Below the pieces are notes generated by a model. It had not been told where the DNA came from. It made no database searches and saw nothing but the letters and a program-made list of their open reading frames with translations. From Sodalis ligni (GTDB lineage Bacteria; Pseudomonadota; Gammaproteobacteria; Enterobacterales; Enterobacteriaceae): DNA of 64,000 nt. The translations under genes were made by a program, and so were the position numbers. This document shows, one piece after another, positions 27,058 through 45,887 of the stretch. The number at the start of each line of letters is the position of its first letter. Within the stretch, counting starts at the first letter, position 1. The stretch covers positions 4,030,337-4,094,336 of the forward strand of contig NZ_CP075169.1 of assembly GCF_016865525.2 (NCBI RefSeq), given 5' to 3'.

Positions 27058-28014
27058 TCAGATTTGATAGTCCAACGCCGGCTCGCTGCTATAGGGCGCC
27101 AGGATCTGTTCTTCTATTTCGGTCAGGGTCAGCTGCGGATTGCACAGCTGGATAAAGCGCCAGGCGTATTTACGCTGCAACTGGCCGCGTTTGACGCCCA
27201 GCCAGACGGTATTGGCTTCAAACAGGTGTTCGGCATTAAGACTTACCAGTCCGGTATCACGTTCGCGGTTGTAGGACATATCCGCCAGCAGGCCCACCCC
27301 CAAACCCAGCTCGACGTAGGTTTTAATCACATCGGAATCCTGGGCGCTCAATACCACTTCCGGCTTGAGTCCGGCGGCCTGGAAGGCGATATCCAGCCGG
27401 GAACGACCGGTAATACCGCGCCGGTAGGTGACCAACGGGAATTGGCTCAAGGTTTCCAGCGTAATGTCCGCTTCTTTGGTCAGGGGATGCCCCTCAGGCA
27501 CCAGGATCGTATGATGCCAGCGATAATAAGGAAACGCCGCCAATTGCTCCTCGCTCATCAGCTTTTCACTGGCAATGCCCACATCCGCTTCACCGGATTG
27601 CAGCATGGCGACAATCTCCTCCGGACTGCCTTGGTTCAGCACCAGCCGGACCCGGGGATAAAGCTCGCGGAATTCTTTAATAACCGCCGGCAAGCTATAA
27701 CGCGCCTGGGTATGAGTCGTCACGATGGATAATTCGCCGGAGTCTTTATTGGCGAAAACATCCGCAATGCGGCGAATATTATTGGCATCGCTAAGGATGC
27801 GTTCCGCCACCGTCAACAAGGCTTTGCCCGGCTCGGTCATACCGATTAAGCGCTTACCGCGGCGGATAAAAATTTCCACCCCCAGCTCTTCTTCCAACTC
27901 GCGAATATGACGGCTGACACCGGATTGGGAGGTAAATAACATACTGGCCACATCGGTCAGATTATAATTGCACCGGGCCGATTCCCGAATTATGCGTAGC
28001 TGTTGAAAGTTCAC
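27058..28014 (-). CDS. cbl: Cbl/CysB-family LysR transcriptional regulator
   Basis: LysR-type activator closely resembling E. coli Cbl, the adenosine-phosphosulfate-responsive activator of taurine and alkanesulfonate genes. 318 residues. The N-terminal winged HTH reads NFQQLRIIRESARCNYNLTDVASMLFTSQSGVSRHI (split over residues 2-37). Family-specific stretches follow: RGKRLIGMTEPGKAL, TTHTQARYSLP, AQDSDVIKTYVELGLG and NTVWLGVKRGQLQR, and the C-terminus LDYQI matches Cbl. I chose the GTG at 28014, with GGAGG about 8 bases upstream, because it gives the exact Cbl/CysB N-terminus. It sits beside a cluster for sulfur-containing or organosulfonate substrates and is the obvious candidate regulator. 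Confidence 0.85.
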   Translation of the reverse strand: MNFQQLRIIRESARCNYNLTDVASMLFTSQSGVSRHIRELEEELGVEIFIRRGKRLIGMTEPGKALLTVAERILSDANNIRRIADVFANKDSGELSIVTTHTQARYSLPAVIKEFRELYPRVRLVLNQGSPEEIVAMLQSGEADVGIASEKLMSEEQLAAFPYYRWHHTILVPEGHPLTKEADITLETLSQFPLVTYRRGITGRSRLDIAFQAAGLKPEVVLSAQDSDVIKTYVELGLGVGLLADMSYNRERDTGLVSLNAEHLFEANTVWLGVKRGQLQRKYAWRFIQLCNPQLTLTEIEEQILAPYSSEPALDYQI

Positions 28015-28317
28015 CCGCCGCCCCTCCGTTATCTTAAATTTAACTATATTCATACCGGGGAAGCGATAAAGGGACAAATAAGAAAAATAGGTAACTTATA
28101 GTTTTTTATACTAAGGGAAAATTAAAATTTCCATTAGGGAGCTATTTAATTAAAACATGCTATATTTCAAGCAATTAAAATCCGCATCAGCAGGAAAGAA
28201 AAAAGAATTTCATCCGCCAGCGTTTAACCCTAAAGAATAAGCCAAAACTTATCTAAGCTTTTGCCAATTTTGTCTTAACACCGAATACTCAAACCCTGTT
28301 AAACAAAACCACTGAAG

Positions 28318-28760
28318 CCCGCGATCGTTATGACATAAACCGTCCATGCCAAAGGGAACGCGTGTTAAAGGGAAACCGTGCTGATGGGGCCGAAGCGGGC
28401 GTGCTTTTCCCGCCCGCCGGAGCGCCCCACAGCGCGGTAAGCCCGCTATCACCGTAGCATGAACCGTCCATACGAAAGGGAATGCGTGTTAAAGGGAAAC
28501 CGCGCTGATGGGGCCGAAGCGGGCGTGCTTTTCCCGCCCGCCGGAGCGCCCCACAGCGCGGTAAGCCCGCTATCACCGTAGCATGAACCGTCCATACGAA
28601 AGGGAATGCGTGTTAAAGGGAAATCGTGCTGATGGGGCCGAAGCGGGCGTGGTTTTCCCGCCCGCCGGAGCGCCCCACAGCGCGGTAAGCCCGCTATCAC
28701 CGTAACATGAACCGTCCATACAAAAGGGAATGCGTGTTAAAGGGAAACCGCGCCGGCACC
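28318..28760. repeat. Tandem repeat array B, 124-bp period, about 3.5 copies
   Basis: The word CGTCCAT recurs at 28341, 28465, 28589 and 28713 (spacing 124). Read on the minus strand each unit contains GATAGCGGGCTTA, GGGGCGCTC, the stem GCGGGCG / CGCCCGC, TTCGGCCCCATCAGCACG and TTTCCCTTTAACACG. It shares its frame with arrays A, C and D but not its stem sequence. The right end runs into the 3' end of the racemase gene, whose stop codon is the TAA of CCCTTTAACACG. Between the cbl-like gene and the array (28015-28317) the DNA is AT-rich with no gene. Confidence 0.92.
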
Positions 28761-29462
28761 ATCCCGGTAGGCCACCCACAAACGCACCGCGGCTTGGGCC
28801 AGAGCGCGGGTAGGATCAATACTGAGCTGTTGCAAAGGGGAACCAATAGCCGCCAGCGCCGGCGGCACCTCGGTACAGGCCAAAACCAATCGCTCGGCCC
28901 CCCGCGCTATCAGCGCCTGCGCCAGCAAGGACAACAACTCGCCGCCCCGCCGCAATTCACCACGCTTCACCGCATAACAGCCGGGTACGAACCAATCGGT
29001 CATCTCCTGCGGCAGCGGCTCCAGCGTAGCAATCCCCATATCCGCAAATCTCTGCTGGAACAAACCGGCATCAAGGGTGCCCTGAGTGGCAATCAACCCC
29101 ACCCGCGCCACCGCCCCCTGCGTCAGGCTCGCCACCGTGGCGTCGGCAATATGCACTATGGGCGCCGCGCTGGCCTCGGCCAACTGCGGATACCAGAAAT
29201 GAGCGGTATTACAAGGTATCAGGATATGGCTGGCGCCCGCCCGGTTAAGCTGCGCCAGCGCCGGCAGCAAATCCGGCAGCGGCGACGGCCCGGTTCCGGC
29301 CAACGCCCGCTGTCGGTCCGCGATTTGCGGCACGCTCCAGGCCACCCCCGGCGCGTGCTCCTGATCCCGCCGCGCCGGGGTCTCCTCGATGATTTTCTGC
29401 AACAGATCGACGGTAGCCAAAGGCCCCATACCGCCCAGCACACCCAACAGGAATCCGCTCAT
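28737..29462 (-). CDS. Aspartate/glutamate racemase family protein
   Basis: PLP-independent amino-acid racemase of the Asp/Glu/hydantoin racemase superfamily, YgeA-like, using two cysteines as acid and base. 241 residues. N-terminal LGGMGPLATVDLLQKI, first cysteine C84 in IPCNTAHFW, second cysteine C196 in ACTEVP. All catalytic elements are present. Third gene of the leftward operon after the dehydrogenase and the PLP lyase (6-base gap to the lyase). In this setting it could interconvert D- and L-forms of the lyase substrate (inference). Its stop codon and last residues (AVSL) lie inside the first unit of repeat array B, so the array has invaded or replaced the gene's 3' end. Confidence 0.85.
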   Translation of the reverse strand: MSGFLLGVLGGMGPLATVDLLQKIIEETPARRDQEHAPGVAWSVPQIADRQRALAGTGPSPLPDLLPALAQLNRAGASHILIPCNTAHFWYPQLAEASAAPIVHIADATVASLTQGAVARVGLIATQGTLDAGLFQQRFADMGIATLEPLPQEMTDWFVPGCYAVKRGELRRGGELLSLLAQALIARGAERLVLACTEVPPALAAIGSPLQQLSIDPTRALAQAAVRLWVAYRDGAGAVSL

Positions 29463-29468
29463 ATCAGC

Positions 29469-30470
29469 CTATTGTTCCAGTACCTGGCGATAGCCGAACA
29501 GCCCGGCCGAACCGCCGGTATGGATAAACACCACGTTTTCATCTTTGCCGAATTGACCTTTGCGGATCAAATCGATAAGACCGGCCATGCCTTTACCGGT
29601 ATAAACCGGATCGAGCAAAATGCCTTCCAGCTGCGCCAACAAGCGCAGGGCTTCCAGGGTGCCTTCGGTGGGCAATCCGTAGCCTTCCCCCACGTAGTCG
29701 CTATTGACGCTGACCTGTTCGCGGGGCAATTCACCGCGGGCGCCGAGCAGTTGCCAGGTGGCCCGTGCCAGCGCATAAACATTCTCTTCCTGCTTGGCCT
29801 TAGGCGCACGGACGCTGATGCCCAATACCGGTATGCCGCTGTTGCTGGCGTTCAAACCCGCCACCAGACCGGCCTGGGTCCCGGTGCTGCCGGTGGCGTG
29901 CACCACCCGATCGATGCGCAGCCGCTGCTGGCTGGACTGATACAGCAGCTCTTCGGCACAGGCCACATAACCCAGGGCGCCGATGGGGTTGGAACCGCCG
30001 CCCGGGATAACATAAGGGGTATGGCCCTGTTCACGCAGGGTTGACGCCAACCGTTCCATGGCCTGCTGCATATCGGTGCCGGCCGGCAGGTGATCAACGA
30101 TAACGCCGCCCAGCAGGTTATCCAGCAGCACGTTGCCGGAGCGTTGATAGTCCTCACCGAACCGCTCTACCCGTTTTTCCAGCAGTATCTGGGTTTTCAG
30201 GCCGATTTTCGCCGCGCCGGCAATAGTCTGGCGCACATGGTTGGATTGGGTGGCGCCCTGGGTTATTACCACATCGGCGCCTTGCTGCAGCGCATCGGCC
30301 AGCAGGAACTCCAGTTTGCGCGTTTTGTTGCCGCCGGTGGCAAGGCCGGTGCTGTCGTCACGTTTGATATACAGGTTGGGGCCGCCGAGATAGCGGCTCA
30401 GATTGGGCAACGCCTCCAAAGGCGTCGGGAACTGTCCAAGGGAAAGTCGGGGAAAACGGGCCAGATGCAT
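29469..30470 (-). CDS. PLP-dependent lyase of the L-cysteate sulfo-lyase (CuyA) / D-cysteine desulfhydrase family
   Basis: Fold type II PLP enzyme, 333 residues, that eliminates sulfite or sulfide from a C3 amino acid to give pyruvate and ammonia. The PLP lysine is K49 in [10 protein letters not shown], followed by [13 protein letters not shown] and the phosphate-binding loop [15 protein letters not shown]. Several stretches (MHLARFPR start, [57 protein letters not shown]) look to me more like CuyA (L-cysteate sulfo-lyase, EC 4.4.1.25) than E. coli DcyD; this is from memory and needs an alignment. Operon partners (a ComC/HcxB-type dehydrogenase and a racemase) and a sulfonate-type importer support a cysteate role. 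D-cysteine desulfhydrase remains the alternative. Confidence 0.8.
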
Positions 30471-30523
30471 AATCTTATTGTCCTGATAAAGGGGTGAAAT
30501 AAATTCTCATTCGTCGGTTGGGA

Positions 30524-31555
30524 TTAATGGCCGGCCGGTATGTCCGCCAGCGCCGCCAATTGTCGCCAACTGGTGTCGTCGACCTCAATCCCCAGCGCCA
30601 GCCGCTGTTGATATTTTTCATGTTCCGCATCGCCGGGCAGCAAAAGCGAGGCATCATCGCGGGAACTGCGGACCCAGTCCAGCAATTCGGCGATCTCCTG
30701 TTGATAATTCGCCGCCCCGCCCAGCTTGTGGGGATCGATCAAAATCGACAGCATACTATTCAGTATACGTTGCGTATCGCGGTTATCATGCCTCTCGGTC
30801 AGGCCGCCGGTCAAGGCCGCTCCCAGCAATGAGCACACGACCGACAGGCCGGAACCTTTATGCTTGCCGAACGGCAGCAATGCGCCGAAAGGTTCTTCCA
30901 TCAGCCAGCGCGGATCAACGGCGGGCCGGCCCTGGTCATCCACAATACAACCGGGCGCCAACTCCTGACCGGCGTTCCAGGCGATGCGGGCTTTATTGCC
31001 GGCGATAATACTGGTGGCGAAATCCAGGACCAACGGATGACTGGCCCCGTCCACCGGTATGCCGACGCAGAACGGGTTGGTTCCCAGCCGCGGCTTCTGC
31101 CCTTGCCACGGCATCACCGGCGAGCGGCTGTTGACGTTGGCGAAATGAATGGAGACCAGCCCGGCTTTGGCCGCTTGCTCCGCCCAGGCGCCGATCCGGC
31201 CGAGATGATGGGCGTTGGCCAGCCCCACTACAGCTACGCCGTACTGTTTAGCCCGTTCGATGCCCTGCGCCATGGCCTGGCGGCCTACCACCTGTCCAAA
31301 ACCCTGCCCACCGTCAAAGGAGAGCAATGCCCCGGCGTCAAGGGTGAGCACAGCGTCGGCATGGGGATGCAATCCCCCTTCCCTAATGGCGGCGATATAG
31401 CGCGGCAGCATGCTGACACCGTGGGAATCATGTCCTTTTAAACAGGCTTCCACCAAATTATCCGCCACCTGAGTGGCGATGTCGTGATCCACCTGAATAT
31501 CCGTCAGGCGGGCGGTCAGAAACTCCCGCAAAAATTGGTGCTGAAAAATGGGCAC
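30524..31555 (-). CDS. Ldh2/MDH2-family 2-hydroxyacid dehydrogenase (HcxB/ComC-like)
   Basis: NAD(P)-dependent oxidoreductase of the malate/L-lactate (COG2055) family, 343 residues. It resembles E. coli YbiC/HcxB (hydroxycarboxylate dehydrogenase B); the same family contains ComC, the (R)-sulfolactate dehydrogenase. Motifs: CLKGHDSHGVSMLPRY near residue 38, NAHHLGRIGAWAEQAA with the catalytic histidine, PRLGTNPFCVGIP, LDFATSIIAGNKARIAW and PFGKHKGSGLSVVC. First gene of the leftward operon from the divergent promoter region; 53 bases to the next gene. The proposed role, interconversion of sulfolactate and sulfopyruvate, is inferred from context; other 2-hydroxyacids are possible. Confidence 0.82.
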   Translation of the reverse strand: MPIFQHQFLREFLTARLTDIQVDHDIATQVADNLVEACLKGHDSHGVSMLPRYIAAIREGGLHPHADAVLTLDAGALLSFDGGQGFGQVVGRQAMAQGIERAKQYGVAVVGLANAHHLGRIGAWAEQAAKAGLVSIHFANVNSRSPVMPWQGQKPRLGTNPFCVGIPVDGASHPLVLDFATSIIAGNKARIAWNAGQELAPGCIVDDQGRPAVDPRWLMEEPFGALLPFGKHKGSGLSVVCSLLGAALTGGLTERHDNRDTQRILNSMLSILIDPHKLGGAANYQQEIAELLDWVRSSRDDASLLLPGDAEHEKYQQRLALGIEVDDTSWRQLAALADIPAGH

Positions 31556-31645
31556 AAGTTTTACTCCGATGATTAAGGCTAATTAGGCCATATCTAATAA
31601 CCGAAGAACTTTAATGCCGAAGAACTTTCCGCCAAAAGACAATAA

Positions 31646-31679
31646 GCTGCTAAGGATAGTTAAATTAATGCTAAGCAGC
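31646..31679. promoter_or_regulatory. Candidate operator in divergent promoter region of the sulfonate cluster
   Basis: Interrupted dyad GCTGCTAAG ... CTTAGCAGC written on the two strands (31646-31654 and 31671-31679, one mismatch), 25 bases between arm starts. It lies in the 285-base region between the two divergent arms. Several more CTAAG/CTTAG words follow (31704-31745). The layout suits a LysR-type regulator such as the Cbl-like protein at 27058-28014, but binding is inferred. Confidence 0.45.
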
Positions 31680-31840
31680 GATCGCTTTCGCACAAATTAC
31701 CCTTAGCTAAAATATCGCTAAGTAAATCCAAATATTATCTAAGAATTTACTTCTAATTTATTCCAAAAAACACTTTAGGAAGAAGTACCATTGGACTTTA
31801 TGATGGGCCAAACAGATCTTCTTTATCTTAGGAAAAATCG

Positions 31841-32844
31841 ATGAATTCACTTTTTAAACGAGCCGGCCTTGTCGTCGCGCTCGGTTTATCATTGGGTACG
31901 ATAAATGCCCACGCTGAAGGGACCATTAGCATTGCGCAGCAGTTCGGTATCGGTTATCTGATTTTGGATGTGGTGCAGGATCAGCATCTGATTGAAAAAT
32001 ACGGTAAGCAGGAAGGGCTGGATATCAAGGTGGACTGGCACAGCATTTCCGGCGCCACCGCCATGAACGAGGCGCTGCTGACCGGTTCGCTGGATGTGGT
32101 GAGCGCCGGGGTACCGCCGGCCCTGACGGTATGGGATCGAACCCGCGGTAAGCAAAATGTCAAAGCTATCGCCTCTCTCGGTTCCATGCCCAACTATTTG
32201 CTCAGCAATAATCCGGCGGTGAAAAGCATCAAGGACTTGACCGATAAGGATCGTATCGCCGTACCGGCGGCGGGCGTGGGTTTTCAATCGCGGACCCTGC
32301 AAATTGAAACCGCCCGTATTTATGGGAACGCGGATTATAAACGCTTTGATAATATCACGCTCAGTCTGCCTCATCCGGATGCCACCGCCGCCCTTATCTC
32401 CGGCGGCTCCGAAATCACCGCGCATTTTTCCAGTCCCCCGTTCCAATATCAGGCGCTGGAGCATCCCAATATTCATAAGATCCTGAGCTCTTATGATGTT
32501 CTGGGCGGTAAAGGCACCTTCAATCTGCTTTATACCACTGAAAAATTCCATGACGCCAACCCGAAGACATACAAAGCCTTTTTGATGCGTTGGCGGAAGC
32601 CGCAGAATTTATCAAGGCAAATAAACATGAGGCGGCCGAAACCTATATTCGGGTAGAGAAATCCCATTTGCCGCTGGAGCTTATTGAGAAAATCATCAGC
32701 GACCCGGAAAATGACTTCACTATCACGCCGCAAAAGACTTTTGTTTACGCTGATAAATTACATGAATTAGGCGTTCTGAAAAATCAGGCCGGTTCCTGGA
32801 AGGATTACTTTTTCCCTGAAGCCTACGCGCTGCCCGGCAGCTGA
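31841..32844 (+). pseudogene. Sulfonate/nitrate-type ABC periplasmic binding protein (SsuA-like), one-base frameshift
   Basis: Periplasmic solute-binding protein of the SsuA/TauA/NrtA family. The N-terminus has a Sec signal peptide (LVVALGLSLGTINAHA). The mature domain starts with GTISIAQQFGIGYLILDVVQ and includes SLGSMPNYLLSNNP and DLTDKDRIAVPAAGVGFQS. At 32581-32585 one T is missing from a T run. Reading then leaves the frame after YKAF; the restored frame gives DALAEAAEFIKANKHEAAETYI and runs to the natural stop at 32844. With the base restored the protein is about 334 residues. First gene of the rightward arm; its ATPase and permease follow and are intact. Confidence 0.85.
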
Positions 32845-32877
32845 TTTTTCGCTTTTAACGGTTACAGGACCTGCATA

Positions 32878-33726
32878 ATGGCACATAACGTTCAGCACAT
32901 CCCGGCGGCGCCGTTGCTTCGGGTCGACGCATTGAATCTTGAATACCATACCCATCAGCGGGTAATTCGCGCCACGCATAATGTCGGCTTTGAGGTGTTT
33001 GCCGCAGACAGGTTTGTGCTGCTGGGCCCTTCCGGCTGCGGCAAATCCAGCCTGCTGAAAGCCATAGGCGGCTTTCTACCGGCGGTAAGCGGGCGAATCG
33101 AACTGGAGGGCCAGAGCGTTACCCAGCCCGGACCGGACCGTTTAATGGTATTTCAGGAGTTCGATCAGTTGCCCCCCTGGAAAACCGTGCTGGAGAACGT
33201 GATGTTCCCGCTGTTGGCCAGCGGCAAGGCGCACCGTGCCGAAGCCCGGGAACATGCGCGCTATTTTCTGGATAAAGTCGGCCTGTCGGCTTTCGCCGAT
33301 GCCTATCCCCATACCTTATCCGGCGGCATGAAACAGCGGGTGGCCATTGCGCGCGCGTTGGCGATGCAGCCGAAGGTGCTGCTGATGGATGAGCCTTTCG
33401 CCGCGCTGGACGCACTGACCCGGCGCAAAATGCAGGAAGAGCTGCTGGCTCTGTGGGAAGAGGTGCGTTTTACCCTGCTGTTCGTTACTCATTCCATTGA
33501 AGAGGCCTTGGTGGTGGGCAGCCGGATTTTGTTGCTGTCCCCCCATCCCGGCCGGGTCAGAGCGGAAATCAACAGCCATCAGTATGGCATTAATGATTTC
33601 GGCAGCAGCGACTTCCAGCAGACAGCGCAGCGGATCCATGAGCTGTTGTTCAGCGATCCGGAAAGCGGCCCCGCAACGGCCCCTGCCGAGACGGCCAAAC
33701 CCCGTTTCAAGGTCGTGGGTAAATGA
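32878..33726 (+). CDS. Sulfonate/nitrate/taurine-type ABC transporter ATPase
   Basis: Cytoplasmic ATPase of an SsuB/TauB/NrtD-type importer, 282 residues. Walker A GPSGCGKS is at 50-57, the Q-loop is in FQEFDQLPPW, the signature LSGGMKQR near residue 145, the Walker B and D-loop read LLMDEPFAALD, and the switch histidine is in VTHSIEEAL. The FQEFDQLPPWKTV Q-loop is typical of the nitrate/sulfonate subfamily. A C-terminal extension of about 50 residues is rich in Pro, Ala and Lys. It follows the binding-protein gene by 33 bases and precedes the permease by 24 bases. Confidence 0.9.
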   Translation: MAHNVQHIPAAPLLRVDALNLEYHTHQRVIRATHNVGFEVFAADRFVLLGPSGCGKSSLLKAIGGFLPAVSGRIELEGQSVTQPGPDRLMVFQEFDQLPPWKTVLENVMFPLLASGKAHRAEAREHARYFLDKVGLSAFADAYPHTLSGGMKQRVAIARALAMQPKVLLMDEPFAALDALTRRKMQEELLALWEEVRFTLLFVTHSIEEALVVGSRILLLSPHPGRVRAEINSHQYGINDFGSSDFQQTAQRIHELLFSDPESGPATAPAETAKPRFKVVGK

Positions 33727-33750
33727 CCGGACCGCATGGGAGAAAATAGT

Positions 33751-34617
33751 ATGAGTATTCAGCCGCCGGTCCGTCCGGAATATATTTATGATCTGCCTCC
33801 CCTGTGGAAAATGACCCTGGTAAAACCCTTGCCGTTGATGACGCGTCTGTGGAACCAGGCCTGGCTGCGCAAGTCGGTGATCATCCTGGTGTTGATACTG
33901 CTCTGGGAAGGGGCGGCGCGTTGGCAAAACAACGACCTGTTATTGCCGGGATTCATCCAGACCCTGAAGGCCTTTATGCAGGACATGGCCAGCGGGGAAC
34001 TGCCGACCAAAATAGGCTTTTCACTGGGCACGCTTATCAAGGGCTATATCATCGGTACCGTGCTGGCGCTGGTGCTGAGCTCGCTGGCGGTATCGACCCG
34101 CATCGGCCGCGATCTGCTGAGCACCCTGACCTCAATGTTCAATCCGCTGCCCGCCATTGCCCTGCTGCCGTTATCGCTATTGTGGTTCGGCCTGGGGGAA
34201 AATAGTCTGATTTTTGTGCTGGTGCATTCGGTGATGTGGCCCATGGCGCTGAATACCTATGCCGGTTTCCTCGGGGTGTCCGATACGCTGCGCATGACCG
34301 GCAGAAATTACGGGCTGCGCGGGTTGCGCTACGTTTGGTACATTCTGATCCCCGCCGCCCTGCCTTCTATTCTCTCCGGCCTGAAAATCGGCTGGGCATT
34401 CGCCTGGCGGACCCTTATCGCCGCTGAACTGGTATTCGGCGCCTCCAGCGGTAAAGGGGGATTGGGCTGGTATATCTTCCAAAACCGCAACGAACTTTTT
34501 ACCGACCGGGTATTTGCCGGTCTGATATCGGTCATCATTATCGGGCTGTTGGTGGAAGGACTGATATTTACCACCCTCGAACGGGTGACGGTAAAACGCT
34601 GGGGTATGCAGAAATAA
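33751..34617 (+). CDS. Sulfonate/nitrate/taurine-type ABC transporter permease
   Basis: Inner-membrane permease of the SsuC/TauC family, 288 residues, with about six hydrophobic helices. The EAA loop reads TLRMTGRNYGLRGLRYVWYILIP near residue 170-192. I prefer the ATG at 33751 (GGGAGA eight bases upstream) to the in-frame ATG at 33736, which adds five residues. The N-terminus before the first helix is unusually long (about 45 residues). Operon: binding protein, ATPase, permease, dehydrogenase, with 18 bases to the last gene. Confidence 0.88.
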   Translation: MSIQPPVRPEYIYDLPPLWKMTLVKPLPLMTRLWNQAWLRKSVIILVLILLWEGAARWQNNDLLLPGFIQTLKAFMQDMASGELPTKIGFSLGTLIKGYIIGTVLALVLSSLAVSTRIGRDLLSTLTSMFNPLPAIALLPLSLLWFGLGENSLIFVLVHSVMWPMALNTYAGFLGVSDTLRMTGRNYGLRGLRYVWYILIPAALPSILSGLKIGWAFAWRTLIAAELVFGASSGKGGLGWYIFQNRNELFTDRVFAGLISVIIIGLLVEGLIFTTLERVTVKRWGMQK

Positions 34618-34635
34618 TTTTAAGAGAGGCAAAGC

Positions 34636-35814
34636 GTGATTGTCGTTAAAGCACCGCAAAATTACCTGAACGAGCCGGGGCTTATCGCCCGTATCGGCGA
34701 TTATGTCGCGCCTATCAGCCGCGACAAGGTCATGATTATCACCAGCCCCAAGGCGTGGCTGGCGACGCAACGGGCCGTGGAGGCAAGCTTCGCCCCCCAT
34801 GGTATCCAGTATCAGCGCTACTTCCTGCAGGGCGAATGTACCGCGGCGACTATCGCCGCCTTTACTGAACAGGCGGCGGCCGAGGATATCAGGCTTATCA
34901 TCGGCATCGGCGGCGGGAAAGTGCTGGACACGGCAAAAGGAATAGCGGAATCCGGCGGACGTTTGCCGCTGATTACCGTGCCTACCGTTGCCGCTACTTG
35001 CGCCGCCTGGTCGCCGATTTCGGTACTTTATACCGAGGCCGGCGCGCACCTGAACTCCATGCCGCTGCAACGCACCCCTGAATGGGTGCTGGTAGACAGT
35101 CAAATCATCGCCCAAACGCCGGTTCGTTATCTGAAAGCCGGCATCGTGGATGCCCTGGCGAAATGGTATGAGTTCGAACCCTATCTGCGCCAGGATGACA
35201 GCAGTCTTTCCTTGATATTAAAGGCCCAGGCCGCGAAGCTGGCGCTGGACATATTCGAACAGCTTGGCGAACAGGCCGTCGCCGACAACCAGGCCCGCCA
35301 GGTTACACCGGCATTAATAAAAGTGGTGGATGCCGTTATTGCCCTGGCCGGCATGGCCAATAGCATGCGTGATGAAATCACGCGTATCGGCGTCGCACAT
35401 GGGATTCACAACAGCATCACCCGTCAGCCCGACCTGCATGGATTCCTGCATGGCGAACTGGTGGGCTTTGGATTAGTAATACAATCCTTGCTGGATACCA
35501 CCGGCTCGCCGTCGCGGGCGCGGTTATTAAATTTACTGAAAGCGTTTTCAACGCCGTTAACGCTGCGCGAGCTGGGCGTTACCGAATCGGTGGCGCGCCG
35601 CGCCGCGCAAATCGCCCAGGGCGTGCAGATTGCCCCGGCCATTGCCGCCCGCCTGCCCTTCGCGCTGAACGCCGAACGAATAGAGCAGGCGTTGCTTAGT
35701 GCTGCCGGGGATGACTCAGCGGATGAGAGCCCGGCCTGTGACAAGGAAAACGTCGTCCCGGCGTTGACTGAAAGACCATTGCAACCGCAAGCCGCTTACT
35801 CCAGTGGCAAATAA
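34636..35814 (+). CDS. Iron-containing alcohol dehydrogenase family, HcxA (YbdH)/GldA-like
   Basis: Metal-dependent NAD(P) dehydrogenase of the GldA/HcxA group, 392 residues, related to E. coli YbdH/HcxA (hydroxycarboxylate dehydrogenase A). It has the nucleotide motif IGIGGGKVLDTAKG, the family signature TVPTVAATCAAWSPISVLY, GIVDALAKWYE with the metal aspartate, and the metal histidines in VAHGIHNS and FLHGELV. The last 40 residues are a low-complexity tail not usual in the family. It starts with GTG after AGAGAGG. With the HcxB-like enzyme of the opposite arm, the cluster carries two structurally unrelated 2-hydroxyacid dehydrogenases, which could handle opposite enantiomers. Its end overlaps the convergent next gene by 19 bases. 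Confidence 0.82.
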   Translation: MIVVKAPQNYLNEPGLIARIGDYVAPISRDKVMIITSPKAWLATQRAVEASFAPHGIQYQRYFLQGECTAATIAAFTEQAAAEDIRLIIGIGGGKVLDTAKGIAESGGRLPLITVPTVAATCAAWSPISVLYTEAGAHLNSMPLQRTPEWVLVDSQIIAQTPVRYLKAGIVDALAKWYEFEPYLRQDDSSLSLILKAQAAKLALDIFEQLGEQAVADNQARQVTPALIKVVDAVIALAGMANSMRDEITRIGVAHGIHNSITRQPDLHGFLHGELVGFGLVIQSLLDTTGSPSRARLLNLLKAFSTPLTLRELGVTESVARRAAQIAQGVQIAPAIAARLPFALNAERIEQALLSAAGDDSADESPACDKENVVPALTERPLQPQAAYSSGK

Positions 35815-36797
35815 TCGTTAGTGTAATACTGTGCGGGCGGTAACGCCTGCTTCACGATGCCCAGCCCGGTAATCGCAGTGATGAGTTCGCTCCAGGCGCG
35901 ATCGTTAAGTTTTAGCTGCTCGCTGTCCGGTTTACCCAGCACCGCCATGGTATCCTGCCATTGCCGTTTAACAAAATCGGCATCGAAGGACTTGCTGTAT
36001 TGCGCGGCAAACGCGGCGACGGCCTCATCCGGATGGGCGATGGCATAACGTATGCTCCTGCTGGTGGCACGCATGAACGCCTTGGCCAGGGCCGGATTCT
36101 TATCCAGCCACTGCTGGTTGCCGGCGAACATAAAGATGGGAGTATCGGGCACGCCGTAGGCGGTGGCGGGCATAAAGACCGGCGTCTGCTTTCCAGTCAC
36201 CGCCAGTTCGGTGCCCTCGGCGTTGGTAATGCCGGTGGTGGCGTCAACGCGGTTTTGCAGCAGCAGCGGTACGGTATCATCCGCGGCCGCCACCATCTGC
36301 ACATCGTCCAGCGTCATGCCGGCGCTTTTCAAGACCAGTGAGAGCTGCGCTTTCGTCCAGGCATCGTTGTAGATGCCGATCTTTTTGCCCTTCAATTCGC
36401 TAACGGTAAGCGGATGCCCTTCCTGAGTGAAAATACCCCAGTTGTTGCCGATGCCATAACGTCCGATGGCAATAACCGGCGCACCCTGCTCCTTGGCGAA
36501 GATGATATCCATTACCGTGGTGAAGGCTACTTCAGCCCGGCCGGTGCCGAGAAATTTCATGGTATCGGCCACGGTGGGCGGCGCGACGATATTCAGATCA
36601 ATACCCTCGTCAAGATAGAAACCCTTCGCTTTGCCCAGTGTCCAGGGTATCCAGAAACCATCCGCCACCGGCCACTCTTGCACAAAGGTGACTTTTACCG
36701 GTGCGGGTGCGCCCTGCGCCGACAGGGTAATAAACATTGAACTCAGCATTGCGCAGGCAGCAAAAGCCGCACCGGTAAACCATGCTCGTTTTTTCAT
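35796..36797 (-). CDS. NMT1/THI5-like ABC periplasmic binding protein
   Basis: Periplasmic solute-binding protein of the NMT1/THI5/SsuA superfamily, 333 residues, with a signal peptide of about 29 residues ending in SAQG-A. Family stretches: FVQEWPVADGFWIPWTLGKAKGFY, GTGRAEVAFTTVMDIIFAKEQG, LKGKKIGIYNDAWTKAQL and AADDTVPLLLQNRVDATTGITN. No permease or ATPase is next to it on its strand. It may therefore be an alternative receptor for the neighbouring permease and ATPase, whose own binding protein is frameshifted (inference). It is convergent with the HcxA-like gene and overlaps it by 19 bases. Confidence 0.85.
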   Translation of the reverse strand: MKKRAWFTGAAFAACAMLSSMFITLSAQGAPAPVKVTFVQEWPVADGFWIPWTLGKAKGFYLDEGIDLNIVAPPTVADTMKFLGTGRAEVAFTTVMDIIFAKEQGAPVIAIGRYGIGNNWGIFTQEGHPLTVSELKGKKIGIYNDAWTKAQLSLVLKSAGMTLDDVQMVAAADDTVPLLLQNRVDATTGITNAEGTELAVTGKQTPVFMPATAYGVPDTPIFMFAGNQQWLDKNPALAKAFMRATSRSIRYAIAHPDEAVAAFAAQYSKSFDADFVKRQWQDTMAVLGKPDSEQLKLNDRAWSELITAITGLGIVKQALPPAQYYTNDYLPLE

Positions 36798-36962: not shown

Positions 36963-38066
36963 TCAGAACTGGTAGGTCATGCCCACGGCAACGATATTAT
37001 CGTGGTGTATTCCGGCGGCACGGGAAAACGTATTCTCTCTCAACAGATTAATTTGATAATCGACATAGGCCAGCATGTTTTTGTTAAAGTTGTAGGAAGT
37101 GCTGATATCAATATATTTCCGCAGATCCCGGCTGCCGTAACCTTCGATGTCGTCTCCACGGGCCTGCACATAGGCCAGAGAGGGCTTTAAGCCTAAATCA
37201 AACGTATATTGCGCTACCAGTTCAATGTTTCGCGCTTTATTGGCAAATCCATGCACCGTTTTCTTGGTGTCGCCAAAACGCATCAGGTTATAACTCTGGG
37301 TATACATGGCCGCCAGATAAATCGCATCTTTTTCGAATTTCAACGCGCCGGAATAGGCATTGGCCCTGTCGCCACCGTGGCCATAGGCCAGATTCCGCTG
37401 TCCCAGGGTGCGATGGGCACTGCTAAAGGCACCGGCGGCGCTGATGCCCGCGCCGAAATCATAGGACAGCGACATGCCGTAACCGTCTCCGTTTGCCGCC
37501 ATAACTTCGCGGCCCTCGCCTGCCTTACTGCTCTCCGGGTTCTTGCCCTGGTATTGGAGCGCGAAGTGAAGCCCCTCCGCAAGGCCGAAAAAATGCCGGT
37601 TGCGATAGGTGAGCATGCCGTTGCCGCGGTTGGACATCATATCGTCGACGCCGTAGGTATCGCCGCCGAGCTCCGGCAATACATCCGTCCAGGCAAGAAC
37701 GTCGTACAGGACGCCAAAGTTACGGCCGTAGTCAAGGGAGCCGAATTTGCCGTATTTTAATCCGGCATAACCCAGCAGGGTCGAGCCTTGCTGGTCTTTT
37801 TCCTCTTCGGACTTATTCAGGTCCCCTTGGTACTTCCAGTGGCCATAGCCGGTCAGCTCGTCGCTTATTTGGGTTTCGCCGCGAAAACCCAAGCGCATGT
37901 AGGAGAGATCGCCATTCGCTTTCTCATTAGAGGAAAAATAATGCACGCCGACAACCGAACCGAAAAGATCTAATTTATTGCCATCACAATTGTATATTTC
38001 AGCGGCAGCGGCCACCCCTGAAATAAGCGCTGCCGGCGCCATGATTGAAATAAGTCGTAGTTTCAT
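36963..38066 (-). CDS. General outer-membrane porin (OmpC/OmpF family)
   Basis: Trimeric 16-stranded beta-barrel porin for small hydrophilic solutes. 367 residues with a signal peptide of about 22 residues ending in AAA, mature start AEIYNCDGNKLDLFGSV. The constriction loop 3 keeps a classical LPELGGDTYG motif; strands include [13 protein letters not shown], and the protein ends in the BAM signal MTYQF. The mature N-terminus has an unusual cysteine (YNCDGN; usually YNKDGN). The message start region reads GAGAGGTAATAATGA, complementary to the MicF sRNA encoded at 40283, so this porin is the likely OmpF-like MicF target. Downstream gene of a pair of porins on the same strand. Confidence 0.9.
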   Translation of the reverse strand: MKLRLISIMAPAALISGVAAAAEIYNCDGNKLDLFGSVVGVHYFSSNEKANGDLSYMRLGFRGETQISDELTGYGHWKYQGDLNKSEEEKDQQGSTLLGYAGLKYGKFGSLDYGRNFGVLYDVLAWTDVLPELGGDTYGVDDMMSNRGNGMLTYRNRHFFGLAEGLHFALQYQGKNPESSKAGEGREVMAANGDGYGMSLSYDFGAGISAAGAFSSAHRTLGQRNLAYGHGGDRANAYSGALKFEKDAIYLAAMYTQSYNLMRFGDTKKTVHGFANKARNIELVAQYTFDLGLKPSLAYVQARGDDIEGYGSRDLRKYIDISTSYNFNKNMLAYVDYQINLLRENTFSRAAGIHHDNIVAVGMTYQF

Positions 38067-38799: not shown

Positions 38800-39936
38800 T
38801 CAGAACTGGTAAACCAAACCGAGGGCAACGATGTCGTCGGTATTGATACCGGTTGCATCGGTAAACTGGCTGCTATCGATCAGGTTGATTCTGTAGTCAA
38901 CATAGGTCGATATATTTTTGTTGAAGTAGTAAGTCGCACCCACGTCAACAAATTTCACCAGATCCTGGTTATCATAGGTATTACCGTCGCCGGCAGCGCC
39001 GATGTTTTTGCCGCGAGTCTGGTTATACCCGACGAACGGAACCAGACCGAAGTCGAAAGTATAGCCTGCGTAAGCTTCAAAGCCCTGGGCCTTGTTGGCA
39101 TAACCGTATACGTCCGAATCGCTGGAACCGAACGGAGCAGCATTATAAGACTGGGTAAATTCCGTCGCTACATAAAAACCGTTGGCGTTATATTTCAAGC
39201 CGCCGGTATAAGCTTCGGCTCTGTCGCCACGACCGGAGATGCCCGGTTGACCAACGCCATTTTGTTCGTCGGTACGTTTGGAGCTCATGAACGCGCCGCC
39301 GACGGAGAAGCCCAGGCCGAGATCGTAACTCAACGACATACCGTAACCGTCGCCATTTTGACCCAGTACATCACGCCCGTTGGCGGTTTCACCGGGAGCG
39401 CCATTCTCACCTTGATATTGCACAGCGAACTTCAGGCCGTCGACCAGGCCGAAGAAGTTATTATTGCGGTAGGTGGCGACGCCGGTAGAACGACCAAACA
39501 TAAACTGGTCGGCGCTATAGGTGGAGCCGTCGAATTCAGGCTGCACATCGGTCCATGCGGTGATATCGTAAAGGATACCGTCATTACGACCGTAATCGAT
39601 TGAACCGTAGTCGCCGAATTTCAAGCCGGCAAAAGCATAACGGGTAAAGTTGCCGCCGTCAGAGGTACCGGACGCTTCAGTCACATGGCCGTTTATCTGG
39701 TATTCCCAGTCGCCATAACCGGTCAATTGATCGTTGATCTGCGTTTGACCTTTGAAACCGATACGGGTGTAGGTCTGATCGCCGTTAGCACTATCGTTGT
39801 TAGAAAAATAGTGCAATCCATGAAGGGATCCAAACAAATCAAGCTGATTACCGTCTTTATTATATACTTCTGCAGCACCAGCCGTACCAGCCGCTAACAT
39901 CGCTGGAATCAACAGGGCAAGAACCTGTAGTTTCAT
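38800..39936 (-). CDS. ompC: Outer-membrane porin OmpC
   Basis: Major general porin, at the position of ompC (divergent from micF, next to rcsD). 378 residues. The signal peptide of about 21 residues ends in AGA-AEVYN and the mature start is [15 protein letters not shown]. It has the sequence [17 protein letters not shown] and the C-terminal phenylalanine in GLVYQF. I chose the ATG at 39936, behind CGAGGAAAAG, rather than an upstream ATG at 39972. Loop 3 reads [14 protein letters not shown] where E. coli has PEFGGDTY, so the acidic and glycine positions of the constriction loop differ. Expected control is by OmpR through the box at 40076-40095. Confidence 0.9.
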
Positions 39937-40075
39937 TTTCTTTTCCTCGGTATATTTATTATCTTTGGCCACTATTTTACTTTGTGTGCTGTATCAATGC
40001 TGTCTATCTGACACGCAATCTTATTCTGCAATAAATGCAGCTTTATACTAGCGTTAAAATGATACGAATTGGCTT

Positions 40076-40095
40076 ACAATGTTTCAAAATGAAAA
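40076..40095 (-). promoter_or_regulatory. OmpR-binding box upstream of ompC
   Basis: Read on the ompC strand the site is TTTTCATTTTGAAACATTGT, differing from the known E. coli ompC C1 box TTTACATTTTGAAACATCTA at only a few positions. It lies about 140 bases upstream of the ompC start codon and 190 bases upstream of micF, so it could serve both divergent transcripts. Confidence 0.75.
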
Positions 40096-40282
40096 TTTTA
40101 TATTCGATTATGTTTCCGTCATGGAACTAACCTGATAATCACCATACATAGACAATTAAAACTTTGAGGTGAGTCTTGTTTTTGACATTATTAAAAATAA
40201 TCAATAAAAACAATTAGTTAAAATAAAATTATAAAATAGCACGATGTGCTAAAAAGACCTTTTTTCCTCTATCATTTTAAGC

Positions 40283-40360
40283 GCTATCATCATTAAATTG
40301 TCATTATTACTCTCATTTGGTTTAACGTCTTTATTAGCCGGCCTCGTGCCGGCTTTTTTA
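40283..40360 (+). ncRNA. micF: MicF small regulatory RNA
   Basis: The RNA starts with GCTATCATCATTAA, identical to the E. coli MicF 5' end. It lies at the conserved place divergent from ompC and ends with a terminator (AGCCGGC / GCCGGCT plus T6) at 40336-40360. Length is about 78 bases, shorter than the 93 of E. coli because the middle part is reduced. Positions 40301-40314 (TCATTATTACTCTC) are the exact complement, apart from one bulged G, of the ribosome site and start codon of the porin at 36963-38066. Hfq-dependent repression of that porin is therefore predicted. The AT-rich DNA from 40361 to 40580 holds no gene. Confidence 0.9.
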
Positions 40361-40859
40361 TGCATTAATTTTAAATATGAAAAAAGAGAGGATTATATAT
40401 TAACAAATGTTAATATTATATACGAGATATTGCCATATTAATGCTTTAACTTACTTTCACATTTAAATTATAAATATCTGTCTTGATTTTTCGCACTATG
40501 AAACATTGGTTTCATTTATCTTTTATTTAAATGTAAATATAAGGCATACATCACATTAATTAATCAAAATTCATATATTATTTTTGTGCGAAATTTGTCC
40601 AAACCTATGGCTTCCTGGGTATTCAAACGTTTTTCTCGTTTCAATTCCTATTCAAAACCCAGATTTGCGCCTGTCCCCTGGTCTTGTCCGTGCGGCCGGC
40701 TCAGCCCGGCATGCCACCCTAATCTCCCTTTCCATCTGCACGGCGGCCTTCGTTCTGGCCCTCGGGTCGTGTTACACTTTGCGGCACTATTCGCCGGAAA
40801 ACAGGTCGCCGGAAAACTGGCCGTGAGAAGCTCGCTGTTCCTACGGAAACCTTAATGCC

Positions 40860-41234
40860 ATGCAGCAATATCAGAATTTGGAAGACATCTGGAGCCGTTT
40901 GCAGCAATCGGCATTCCGTTCAAAATTTCGACTTAACCAGAAAGATCTGGCCTATCTGCGCAGCAAAGGTATGCCGGTCATACTTTCCCATGCCCGCGAC
41001 TTCATCTCAGGGAGGCTGGCGCCCGCCTTGCCCGCCAAGGACGGTAAGCAAACCCCTTGGCGGGGACATCCGGTATTTGTGGCTCAGCATGCCACCGCGA
41101 CCTGCTGCCGGGGCTGTCTGGAGAAATGGCATGGCATCGCCAAAGGTCAACCCCTAACCGATGTCCAGCAGGAATATATAGTGCAGATGATTGCGTTATG
41201 GCTCAGCCGACAGGAGATGCCGAGAGTTTTATGA
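40860..41234 (+). CDS. DUF4186 family protein
   Basis: 124-residue protein of unknown function. Recognised by the family core GHPVFVAQHATATCCRGCLEKWHGI, with paired cysteines and histidines that may bind a metal, and by a preceding VILSHARDFISGRLAPA. It starts with ATG at 40860. The stop overlaps the start of the following MFS gene (ATGA), so the two are translationally coupled. Confidence 0.75.
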   Translation: MQQYQNLEDIWSRLQQSAFRSKFRLNQKDLAYLRSKGMPVILSHARDFISGRLAPALPAKDGKQTPWRGHPVFVAQHATATCCRGCLEKWHGIAKGQPLTDVQQEYIVQMIALWLSRQEMPRVL

Positions 41235-42382
41235 CTGAAACGCTGAGTACGGAGCAGCACGCCGCCTTACCGGTACGCATAGCCACCCGCATTGTCTTTT
41301 TTATCGCCGGTTTCGGGATGTCGTCCTGGGCACCGTTGGTTCCCTTCGCCAGACAGCGGCTGGGCATCAATGATGCATCTTTGGGAATGCTGTTGCTTTG
41401 CCTGGGCATCGGATCGCTGCTGGCAATGCCGCTGGCGGCGCCCATGGCCGCCCGGCTGGGCTGCAGGCCGCTGATTATCGCATCGGCCGTCATGCTGGGG
41501 CTGGCGCTTCCCGCGCTGGCCGTTGCCGGCGGCACCTTTACCCTGGCCCTCTCATTATTGCTATTCGGCATGGGGCTCGGCGCGATGGACATTACCATGA
41601 ACATCCAGGCAGTGGTGGTGGAAAGAGCCAGCGGCCGGGCCATGATGTCGGGCTTCCATGGTTTTTTCAGCATCGGCGGCATCATCGGGGCGGGATTGGT
41701 GAGCCTGCTGCTCTGGCTGGGTTTGAATCCGCTGTGGTCGGTCGTCGTCGTCGTCCTGATTATCCTGGCCTTGATGCTGTACGCCGCCGAGAATTTATTA
41801 TCCGATCGCCCCGAAGACGATGCCGGCCCTCTCTTTGTCAGGCCACGCGGCAAGGTTCTGTTCATCGGAGCGCTCTGTTTTATTCTCTTTTTAACCGAAG
41901 GCGCTATGCTGGACTGGAGCGCGCTTTTCCTCACGCTGGAACGCGGCCTTGACAGCGCCATGGGCGGACTGGGTTATGCACTGTTCTCCATTGCCATGAC
42001 CGCAGGACGCTTGAACGGCGATCGATTGATCAATGCCATCGGCCGTTACCACACCCTGCTGGCGGGCAGTTTATGCGCCTCGGCGGGGATCGGACTGGCG
42101 ATAACGGTAAACCAGCCCTATGTCACCCTGCTGGGTTTTTTGCTGGTGGGGCTAGGAGCATCGAATCTGGTTCCGTTGCTGTTCAGCGTCGTCGGCAATC
42201 TGAAGGATATGCCGCCTAACCTGGCGCTGGCGGCGATTTCCGGCGTAGGGTATGCCGGCATATTGGCCGGCCCGGCACTAATTGGCTTTATTGCCCATTT
42301 GACCAGTCTGTTTGTCGCGTTCGGCTGTGTCGCAATACTTCTTTTGGTTGTAAGCTTGAGCGCACGCCGTGCGACTCAATAA
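41231..42382 (+). CDS. MFS transporter, YbjJ-like
   Basis: Inner-membrane transporter of the major facilitator superfamily, 383 residues with 12 hydrophobic segments, resembling E. coli YbjJ. Motifs: FFIAGFGMSSWAPLVPFARQRLG at the N-terminus, MAARLGCRPLI (loop 2-3), GAMDITMNIQAVVVERASGR, GFHGFFSIGGIIGAG, and LTEGAMLDWSALFL. The substrate is unknown. The start at 41231 overlaps the DUF4186 stop codon. rcsD begins 24 bases after its end, so transcripts may continue into the Rcs genes. Confidence 0.82.
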   Translation: MTETLSTEQHAALPVRIATRIVFFIAGFGMSSWAPLVPFARQRLGINDASLGMLLLCLGIGSLLAMPLAAPMAARLGCRPLIIASAVMLGLALPALAVAGGTFTLALSLLLFGMGLGAMDITMNIQAVVVERASGRAMMSGFHGFFSIGGIIGAGLVSLLLWLGLNPLWSVVVVVLIILALMLYAAENLLSDRPEDDAGPLFVRPRGKVLFIGALCFILFLTEGAMLDWSALFLTLERGLDSAMGGLGYALFSIAMTAGRLNGDRLINAIGRYHTLLAGSLCASAGIGLAITVNQPYVTLLGFLLVGLGASNLVPLLFSVVGNLKDMPPNLALAAISGVGYAGILAGPALIGFIAHLTSLFVAFGCVAILLLVVSLSARRATQ

Positions 42383-42406
42383 ACAACGATTGGCGAAACC
42401 CGCTTT

Positions 42407-45142: not shown

Positions 45143-45150
45143 TCAACTTT

Positions 45151-45801
45151 ATGAATAATCTCAACGTCATCATTGCAGATGACCATCCTATCGTCCTGTT
45201 CGGTATTCGAAAATCTTTTGAACAAATCGAATGGGTAAAAGTGGTCGGTGAATTCGAAGACTCCACGTCGCTCATCAATAGCCTCGGCAAGCTGGATGCA
45301 AATGTACTCGTGACCGATCTTTCGATGCCCGGCGAAAAGTATGGCGACGGCATTACTCTTATCAAATACATCAAGCGCCATTATCCCCAGTTGGCGATTA
45401 TCGTATTAACCATGAATAACAACCCGGCAATCCTCAGCGCCGTGTTGGAATTGGATATCGACGGTATTGTCCTTAAACAAGGCGCACCCACCGATTTACC
45501 CAAGGCATTGGCCTCGCTGCAAAAAGGCAAAAAATACACGCCGGACAGCGTGGCTAAACTGCTGGAGAGAATAAGCGCCGGCGGTTACGGCGATAAACGC
45601 CTGTCGCCGAAAGAGAGTGAAGTGCTGCGTTTATTCGCGGAGGGCTTTCTGGTGACGGAAATCGCCAAAAAGCTGAATCGCAGTATTAAAACCATCAGCA
45701 GCCAGAAAAAATCCGCCATGCTGAAGCTTGGTGTGGAAAATGATATTGCTCTGCTGAATTATCTGTCGTCGGTAAGTATGGCGCCGGTAGATAAAGAGTA
45801 A
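45151..45801 (+). CDS. rcsB: Response regulator RcsB
   Basis: DNA-binding response regulator of the Rcs phosphorelay, acting as homodimer or with RcsA, GadE or BglJ on capsule, motility and acid genes. 216 residues, the E. coli length. The receiver domain has D10 and D11 (IADDHP), the phosphorylation site D56 (VTDLSMPG) and the conserved lysine in VLKQGAP. The C-terminal LuxR-type HTH reads LSPKESEVLRLFAEGFLVTEIAKKLNRS. Cotranscribed with rcsD. Confidence 0.97.
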   Translation: MNNLNVIIADDHPIVLFGIRKSFEQIEWVKVVGEFEDSTSLINSLGKLDANVLVTDLSMPGEKYGDGITLIKYIKRHYPQLAIIVLTMNNNPAILSAVLELDIDGIVLKQGAPTDLPKALASLQKGKKYTPDSVAKLLERISAGGYGDKRLSPKESEVLRLFAEGFLVTEIAKKLNRSIKTISSQKKSAMLKLGVENDIALLNYLSSVSMAPVDKE

Positions 45802-45854
45802 TGCTCCGATTTCGATAATAAAGCCTGGCGCCGGTGGAAACACGCGGTTATCCC

Positions 45855-45887
45855 ATACCTGAGCGGTTAACCAGGCCGCTCAGGTAT
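45855..45887. terminator. Hairpin between convergent rcsB and rcsC
   Basis: A perfect 12-base stem ATACCTGAGCGG / CCGCTCAGGTAT with a nine-base loop abuts the rcsC stop codon directly. No T tract on either side, so it is probably a bidirectional barrier or a 3'-end protecting structure rather than a classical intrinsic terminator. Confidence 0.6.

Follow-up and report, generated by a model that had tools for sequence, protein, structure and literature searches.

How enterobacteria other than dissimilatory specialists could obtain sulfur from sulfolactate is, to our knowledge, an open question, on which a gene cluster of Sodalis ligni bears. The cluster lies in a window of 64,000 nucleotides (bases 4030337-4094336 of a 6.44-Mb single-contig genome, NZ_CP075169.1; positions given below are those of the window) and is built of two divergent arms. 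The minus-strand arm holds an HcxB-type dehydrogenase, the lyase CuyA, the racemase CuyB and, after a gap, the regulator Cbl. The plus-strand arm holds the binding protein, ATPase and permease of an ATP-binding cassette (ABC) importer followed by an HcxA/GldA-type dehydrogenase. The named genes are uninterrupted frames with the exception of the importer binding-protein gene, and all of them were found where an earlier annotation made from the letters alone (the sequence-only reading) had placed them. Very probably the cluster takes sulfur from small sulfonates via cysteate. The best overall explanation, to which we assign a probability of about one half, is a sulfur-scavenging locus for C3 sulfonates, in which sulfolactates would be converted via cysteate to sulfite.

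The assignment of the lyase (29469-30470, minus strand) to CuyA, the pyridoxal-phosphate-dependent D-cysteate sulfo-lyase family, and of the adjacent racemase to the CuyB family is well supported by curated cut-offs, a tree and controls. The lyase covers positions 1-331 of the 332 of model NF052482 with 556 bits (cut-off 450) and has 61% identity with CuyA of Ruegeria pomeroyi and 97% with the CuyA of Sodalis sp. dw_96; a genome that carries the dw_96 binding protein is rated as belonging to the same genus. As a control, the R. pomeroyi megaplasmid gene SPO_RS20630, which we take to encode the purified CuyA of this organism, scores 553 bits on the same model. The other control is the DcyD paralog of the S. 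ligni genome itself, the gene of which precedes that of an ABC ATPase, presumably TcyN; it scores 372 bits on the CuyA model and 618 on the DcyD model (cut-off 469). The window lyase stays under all three D-cysteine desulfhydrase (PRK03910) cut-offs (322 vs 429, 309 vs 610 and 306 vs 469). The tree was built from 66 of 102 rows, after a reduction of the enteric CuyA rows, and carries long-branch warnings for some deep joins. In it the lyase joins R. pomeroyi CuyA and is separated from DcyD, with Shimodaira-Hasegawa-like approximate likelihood ratio (SH-aLRT) values of 95 on the CuyA side and 99 for the DcyD group. The comparison with R. pomeroyi CuyA sets the motif TQGATQSNH against TAGAIQSNH. 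The same division is seen in 44 genomes that carry the importer: CuyA matches (at least 77% identity) and DcyD-type matches (46-51%) form separate groups, and both kinds are present in 20 of the 44. The remaining matches lie at 38-44%, apart from a decayed one of 65% with an internal stop (G413). D-cysteine desulfhydrase and 1-aminocyclopropane-1-carboxylate deaminase were ruled out as the family of the lyase by model scores, tree and DcyD control. The claim of the sequence-only reading that the enzyme is a cysteate lyase and not DcyD was thus borne out by the cut-offs, the tree and the separate DcyD of the genome, and the phylogeny that it had proposed as a check places the lyase among CuyA proteins.

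CuyB (28737-29462, minus strand) belongs to the Asp/Glu racemase family and matches the cysteate racemase model NF052483 with 244 bits (cut-off 190). An open reading frame of the CuyB cluster was found in 72 of 80 CuyA loci, these being the best 80 of 467 confirmed CuyA relatives; it is adjacent to cuyA in most of them, while some copies are 36-38% identical and stand a few genes away. According to passages in PMC11382572, CuyB interconverts L- and D-cysteate and CuyA prefers D-cysteate, for which Liu et al. (JBC 2024) is cited. Given this preference, racemisation would be a core step and not a widening of the substrate range. The racemase family named by the sequence-only reading therefore stands, and the role of a mere widening does not.

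The connection of the remaining genes with CuyA emerges from the comparison of loci and genomes. The gene of the importer binding protein (SBP1) is present in 29 of the 80 CuyA loci, and 27 of these have an HcxB-type match divergent from it within 700 bases, so the arrangement is not due to chance; in L014 the HcxB-type gene is seen as a fragment only. The 29 loci belong to Sodalis and its relatives, Pectobacterium, Brenneria, Samsonia, Edaphovirga, Yersinia alsatica, Rouxiella, Rahnella, Lonsdalea, Klebsiella michiganensis, Klebsiella indica, a Serratia and others, so that the search for the same gene set suggested by the earlier annotation finds it across many enterobacterial genera. Many Enterobacteriaceae loci (e.g. 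L023-L040) combine cuyA-cuyB with a different importer and have no HcxB- or HcxA-type match in their 10-kb flanks; in the single copy examined, the binding protein of that importer resembles TauA (182 bits, against a cut-off of 304). Both importers are found in Pectobacterium polonicum (L005) and K. michiganensis (L063).

Among 392 genomes of the family, SBP1 is present in 44 (E<=1e-60), CuyA in 53 (E<=1e-110) and both in 36 (Fisher p 3e-30, kinship ignored). The HcxB-type gene stands by the importer in 35 of the 44 genomes, 34 of which have CuyA, as compared with 2 of the 9 genomes where it does not. This split (34/1/2/7) counts G490, where the gene is a fragment, as having HcxB and becomes 33/1/3/7 if it is counted as lacking it; the genes of G413 are decayed. 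For 11 of the 44 genomes, adjacency was judged from 4-kb loci, while longer stretches served for the other 33. The only binding protein is ~53% identical to the query in G410 and G627 and 56% in G413. Eight genomes (G423, G446, G558, G627, G631, G633, G636 and G693) have the HcxB-importer block unlinked to cuyA, i.e. on another contig or megabases away; G655, in which importer and cuyA are on different contigs near contig ends, was left out of the eight. Linkage alone is therefore not the cause of the co-occurrence, which argues for a functional bond. Comparison of genomes thus supports a place for the HcxB-type gene and the importer in the same pathway as CuyA.

Three further layouts fit cysteate as an intermediate formed from an oxidised C3 sulfonate. 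On plasmid pZZM402 of Zymomonas mobilis (L112), an HcxA-type gene (51% identical to that of the window) is divergent from cuyAB. An uncultured Burkholderiales (L078) has the genes of an ABC importer, a HisD-family dehydrogenase, a DegT-family aminotransferase, CuyA and CuyB in this order, and in Pseudomonas sp. MPC6 CuyA is accompanied by a HisD-family gene and an aminotransferase. One may guess that these HisD-family proteins are HpsN-like; that of L078 also passes the histidinol dehydrogenase model. The pZZM402 CuyA is 79% identical to that of the window and falls among enterobacterial CuyA proteins in the tree; its cuyAB pair was likely transferred from enterobacteria.

The HcxB-type enzyme (30524-31555, minus strand) has the Ldh_2 fold and passes the HcxB model PRK10098 (413 vs 336 bits). 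Since it is only 43% identical to E. coli HcxB, its substrate may differ. Lys40 is common to all 67 HcxB-type rows of at least 55% identity (the window included, several loci being represented twice through overlapping stretches) and is replaced by Ala or Ser in five other rows, which hold E. coli HcxB twice; ComC of M. jannaschii has Lys at the equivalent position. The alignment singles out Lys40 and Asn187 as specific to the clade, and no residue in it stands out clearly as binding the sulfonate. ComC is described as (R)-sulfolactate dehydrogenase in a passage of PMC5695019, and we propose by analogy that the HcxB-type enzyme may oxidise (R)/L-sulfolactate.

The metal-dependent dehydrogenase of the other arm (34636-35814, plus strand) belongs to the iron-containing alcohol dehydrogenase (Fe-ADH) family. 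It is 37% identical to E. coli HcxA and has the AATCAAW motif in common with it; its score is under the HcxA cut-off (PRK10586, 216 vs 429), and a closer HcxA relative (79%) is encoded elsewhere in the genome. Glycerol dehydrogenase was rejected for this gene (PRK09423, 241 vs 336; Cys122 instead of Asp). Cys122 is invariant in 15 rows, as are D172, H255 and H272, presumably the metal residues. The closest structures to the predicted one (predicted local distance difference test, pLDDT, 88) are glycerol dehydrogenases. Among the structural neighbours is 6csj, titled as a polyol dehydrogenase double mutant with acquired D-lactate dehydrogenase activity, and the glycerol-dehydrogenase Asp at the site of Cys122 is, as we believe, one of the positions changed in it. 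It is a reasonable guess that the substrate is a D-hydroxyacid, which here would be (S)/D-sulfolactate.

The importer is encoded by the SBP1 gene (31841-32656, plus strand), the ATPase gene (32878-33726, plus strand; TauB/SsuB type, PRK11248 210 bits, below the cut-off of 357) and the permease gene (33736-34617, plus strand; SsuC/TauC type, BPD_transp_1, with 116 bits on NF040733 and 100 on PRK11365, both below cut-off). In the window the SBP1 frame holds the N-terminal three quarters of the protein and changes near 32580; the rest of the C-terminus, matching that of the dw_96 protein, is translated in the other frame (about 32581-32844, plus strand). All 29 SBP1 genes of the 80 loci have a longer frame of 318-374 residues, the two shortest being those of L016 (cut by the contig end) and L021. 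Interrupted copies are also seen in a few other genomes (G413, G713), and the frameshift of the window may be either an assembly error or a real loss. A second, orphan binding protein of the NMT1/SsuA-like type (SBP2; 35796-36797, minus strand; NMT1 150 bits), which occurs in 6 of the 80 loci (L001-L004, L014 and L019), might stand in for the frameshifted SBP1 and is possibly an accessory receptor. Both SBP1 (55 bits) and SBP2 (86) are below the SsuA cut-off (TIGR01728, 163.5), and the folds nearest to the predicted structure of the uninterrupted dw_96 SBP1 (mean pLDDT 75) are TauA and SsuA. The sulfonate-type (SsuABC-type) importer of the sequence-only reading is supported by these data; its substrate would be sulfolactate and perhaps cysteate.

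The Cbl-like regulator expected beside the two arms is confirmed by model NF009324 (27058-28077, minus strand; 552 bits, cut-off 491). Since residue 22 is the first one matched, the protein probably starts near 28014. Cbl is one of two CysB-family matches of the genome (E<=1e-60), the other being presumably CysB. In E. coli, Cbl controls ssuEADCB and tauABCD, and it may control the present cluster. The arms are separated by a control region (31556-31840) with a conserved 20-base element at 31758-31777. Defining control regions by HcxB and SBP1 genes that are divergent and less than 700 bases apart gives 28 regions, many of them from close relatives, and 24 of these match the element at 16 or more of the 20 positions (not matched: L021, L056, L058 and L063), a level reached by 1 of 1000 random sequences. 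Four of six operons that contain a TauD-like gene and lack CuyA carry the element as well (18/20), ahead of the binding-protein gene. The E. coli tauA region scores 6.1, below the 95th percentile of the background, and the ssuE region 13.5, just under the 99th. Of 31 cuyA upstream regions, only that of L054 (18.1) exceeds the 99th percentile (13.5). With no match in tauA, a borderline one in ssuE and this single cuyA region, the element is at best a candidate Cbl site.

Taken together, these assignments would give the following route. Sulfolactate, and perhaps cysteate, would enter through the importer of SsuABC/TauABC type. Sulfopyruvate would be formed from (R)/L-sulfolactate by the HcxB-type enzyme and from (S)/D-sulfolactate by the HcxA-type enzyme, and presumably a housekeeping aminotransferase would convert it to L-cysteate. 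CuyB would then form D-cysteate, CuyA would cleave it to pyruvate, ammonia and sulfite, and CysI, which is present in the genome, would reduce the released sulfite. Cbl would turn the cluster on in sulfur starvation. No match to Xsc above cut-off was found in the genome. The substrates of the dehydrogenases and their stereochemistry are inferred.

Several results weigh against this route. The HcxB-type enzyme fails the L-sulfolactate dehydrogenase (ComC) model NF040650 (196 vs 500), and it has Met49 (Met or Leu in the 67 rows) where ComC has Arg and AllD has Arg48, which a passage in PMC3527362 describes as substrate-binding. The two dehydrogenases of the sequence-only reading could fit sulfolactate, but the ComC-type score speaks against the HcxB-type member of the pair. 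There is no aminotransferase gene in the cluster, its own SBP1 gene is frameshifted, and a UxaA-family pair elsewhere (L182, 108+395 residues) could be SuyAB; no SuyB model was matched. In a kinship-aware test of HcxB by the importer against CuyA, 3 or 4 of 5 independent pairs, too few for such a test, agree and none disagrees (p 0.125, not significant). Corticibacter (L073) has importer and cuyA without an HcxB match, and G639 and G568 have importer and CuyA without HcxB by the importer. The Corticibacter case also favours a simpler reading in which cysteate alone is imported, CuyB and CuyA release sulfite from its L- and D-forms, and the dehydrogenases are passengers of the importer acting on other 2-hydroxy or 2-oxo acids, as does the fact that cuyAB with the other, TauA-like importer and no HcxB- or HcxA-type match in the 10-kb flanks is a common form in the 80 loci. 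It is unlikely, though the strongest competitor, since CuyA is present in 34 of the 35 genomes with HcxB by the importer, in eight cases at an unlinked site, and in Zymomonas an HcxA-type gene goes with cuyAB without this importer in the stretch seen.

A different objection comes from the importer itself. In 7 of the 44 genomes (L122, L134-L136 and L140-L142), 6 of them without CuyA, a TauD-like gene is inserted between the binding protein and the ATPase; the two copies of the seven that were checked on family models (L134 and L135) do not reach the cut-off for taurine dioxygenase. Of the eight genomes that have the importer and lack an intact CuyA, six carry this gene and show no HcxB match nearby, while the operon of L134 has CuyA, CuyB and HcxB as well. 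Since binding proteins 72-77% identical to the dw_96 copy sit beside the TauD-like dioxygenase, the substrate of the importer may be taurine or broad, which also counts against sulfolactate import. The importer could then serve taurine or sulfonates in general, independently of CuyA, and the co-occurrence would reflect a shared sulfur-scavenging lifestyle. The nearness of the predicted SBP1 structure to TauA agrees with this, but in many genera the two arms lie next to each other in divergent orientation, and HcxB-type matches are missing near the six TauD operons and present in CuyA genomes; we consider this explanation improbable. Presence of the TauD-like gene where HcxB and CuyA are absent suggests an importer of sulfonates in which the module for desulfonation can be exchanged. 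Least probable by far is a cluster for the use of D-cysteine, with the lyase acting as D-cysteine desulfhydrase. That name is carried by PDB entries 7ysk and 7ysl, which align with the lyase along all 333 residues at 626 bits and are by sequence of the same type, and by the CuyA-like match in 33 of the 34 plasmid records that have one, R. pomeroyi included; a passage in PMC10507020 states that CuyA is able to act on D-cysteine too. The scores below three desulfhydrase cut-offs, the separate DcyD above its own (618 vs 469), and the surroundings of Cbl and a sulfonate importer all speak against it.

The route from sulfolactates via cysteate to sulfite remains our preferred explanation. A more specific form of it is tentative and should be regarded as rather doubtful: two unreported types of sulfolactate dehydrogenase, one of the HcxB clade for the (R)-form and a metal-dependent one of the HcxA clade with Cys122 in place of the glycerol-dehydrogenase Asp for the (S)-form, would in some enterobacteria feed a sulfur-assimilation route ending in D-cysteate cleavage, and a modular importer would be coupled either to this route or to one-step desulfonation of the same substrate by the TauD-like enzyme.

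The lyase and racemase belong, above curated cut-offs, to the same families as in the CuyA-CuyB pathway known from CuyA of R. pomeroyi DSS-3, with CuyB as described in the passages of PMC11382572. In R. pomeroyi, cuyA has a TRAP (tripartite ATP-independent periplasmic) transporter and a sulfate exporter beside it, as for dissimilation, whereas the Cbl and ABC importer of the Sodalis cluster suggest sulfur assimilation. We propose a likeness to SlcC and ComC (Denger and Cook 2010, as cited in passages of PMC10507020, PMC9594981 and PMC11382572), two dehydrogenases of opposite enantiomers meeting at sulfopyruvate; unlike that pair, the Sodalis cluster has an HcxB-type enzyme below the L-sulfolactate dehydrogenase cut-off and an HcxA-type enzyme of the Fe-ADH family. 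The E. coli HcxB and HcxA are of the same families (43% and 37%), but the Sodalis enzymes are distinct in sequence and linked to CuyA. The importer is alike in type to those of E. coli ssuEADCB and tauABCD, and neither SsuD nor TauD is encoded in the Sodalis locus. PDB 7ysk/7ysl differ from the window CuyA in the substrate name under which they were deposited. The core of CuyA and CuyB is already published, and a route from sulfolactate and the interconversion of its enantiomers by two dehydrogenases are described too; the sole feature that looks new is their association with HcxA/HcxB-type enzymes, Cbl and the importer of this cluster. The statement of the sequence-only reading that it knew of no described operon of this make-up therefore survives for this combination and not for the core or the sulfolactate route; a limited literature search, a weak negative, turned up no operon of this kind. 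Sulfolactate and 2,3-dihydroxypropane-1-sulfonate (DHPS) are given as products of sulfoquinovose breakdown in a passage of PMC9594981. The locus offers candidate genes for the use of sulfolactate sulfur in tractable genera and makes HcxA/HcxB-type enzymes testable as sulfonate enzymes, and the common label of D-cysteine desulfhydrase on CuyA genes becomes doubtful.

In Sodalis-like loci, SBP2 is followed by an additional OmpC-type porin (36963-38066), and a porin is also located beside the importer in L137 and L139; possibly it provides entry through the outer membrane. The region of 38800-48758 is the ordinary ompC, rcsD, rcsB and rcsC neighbourhood, as seen from curated family matches.

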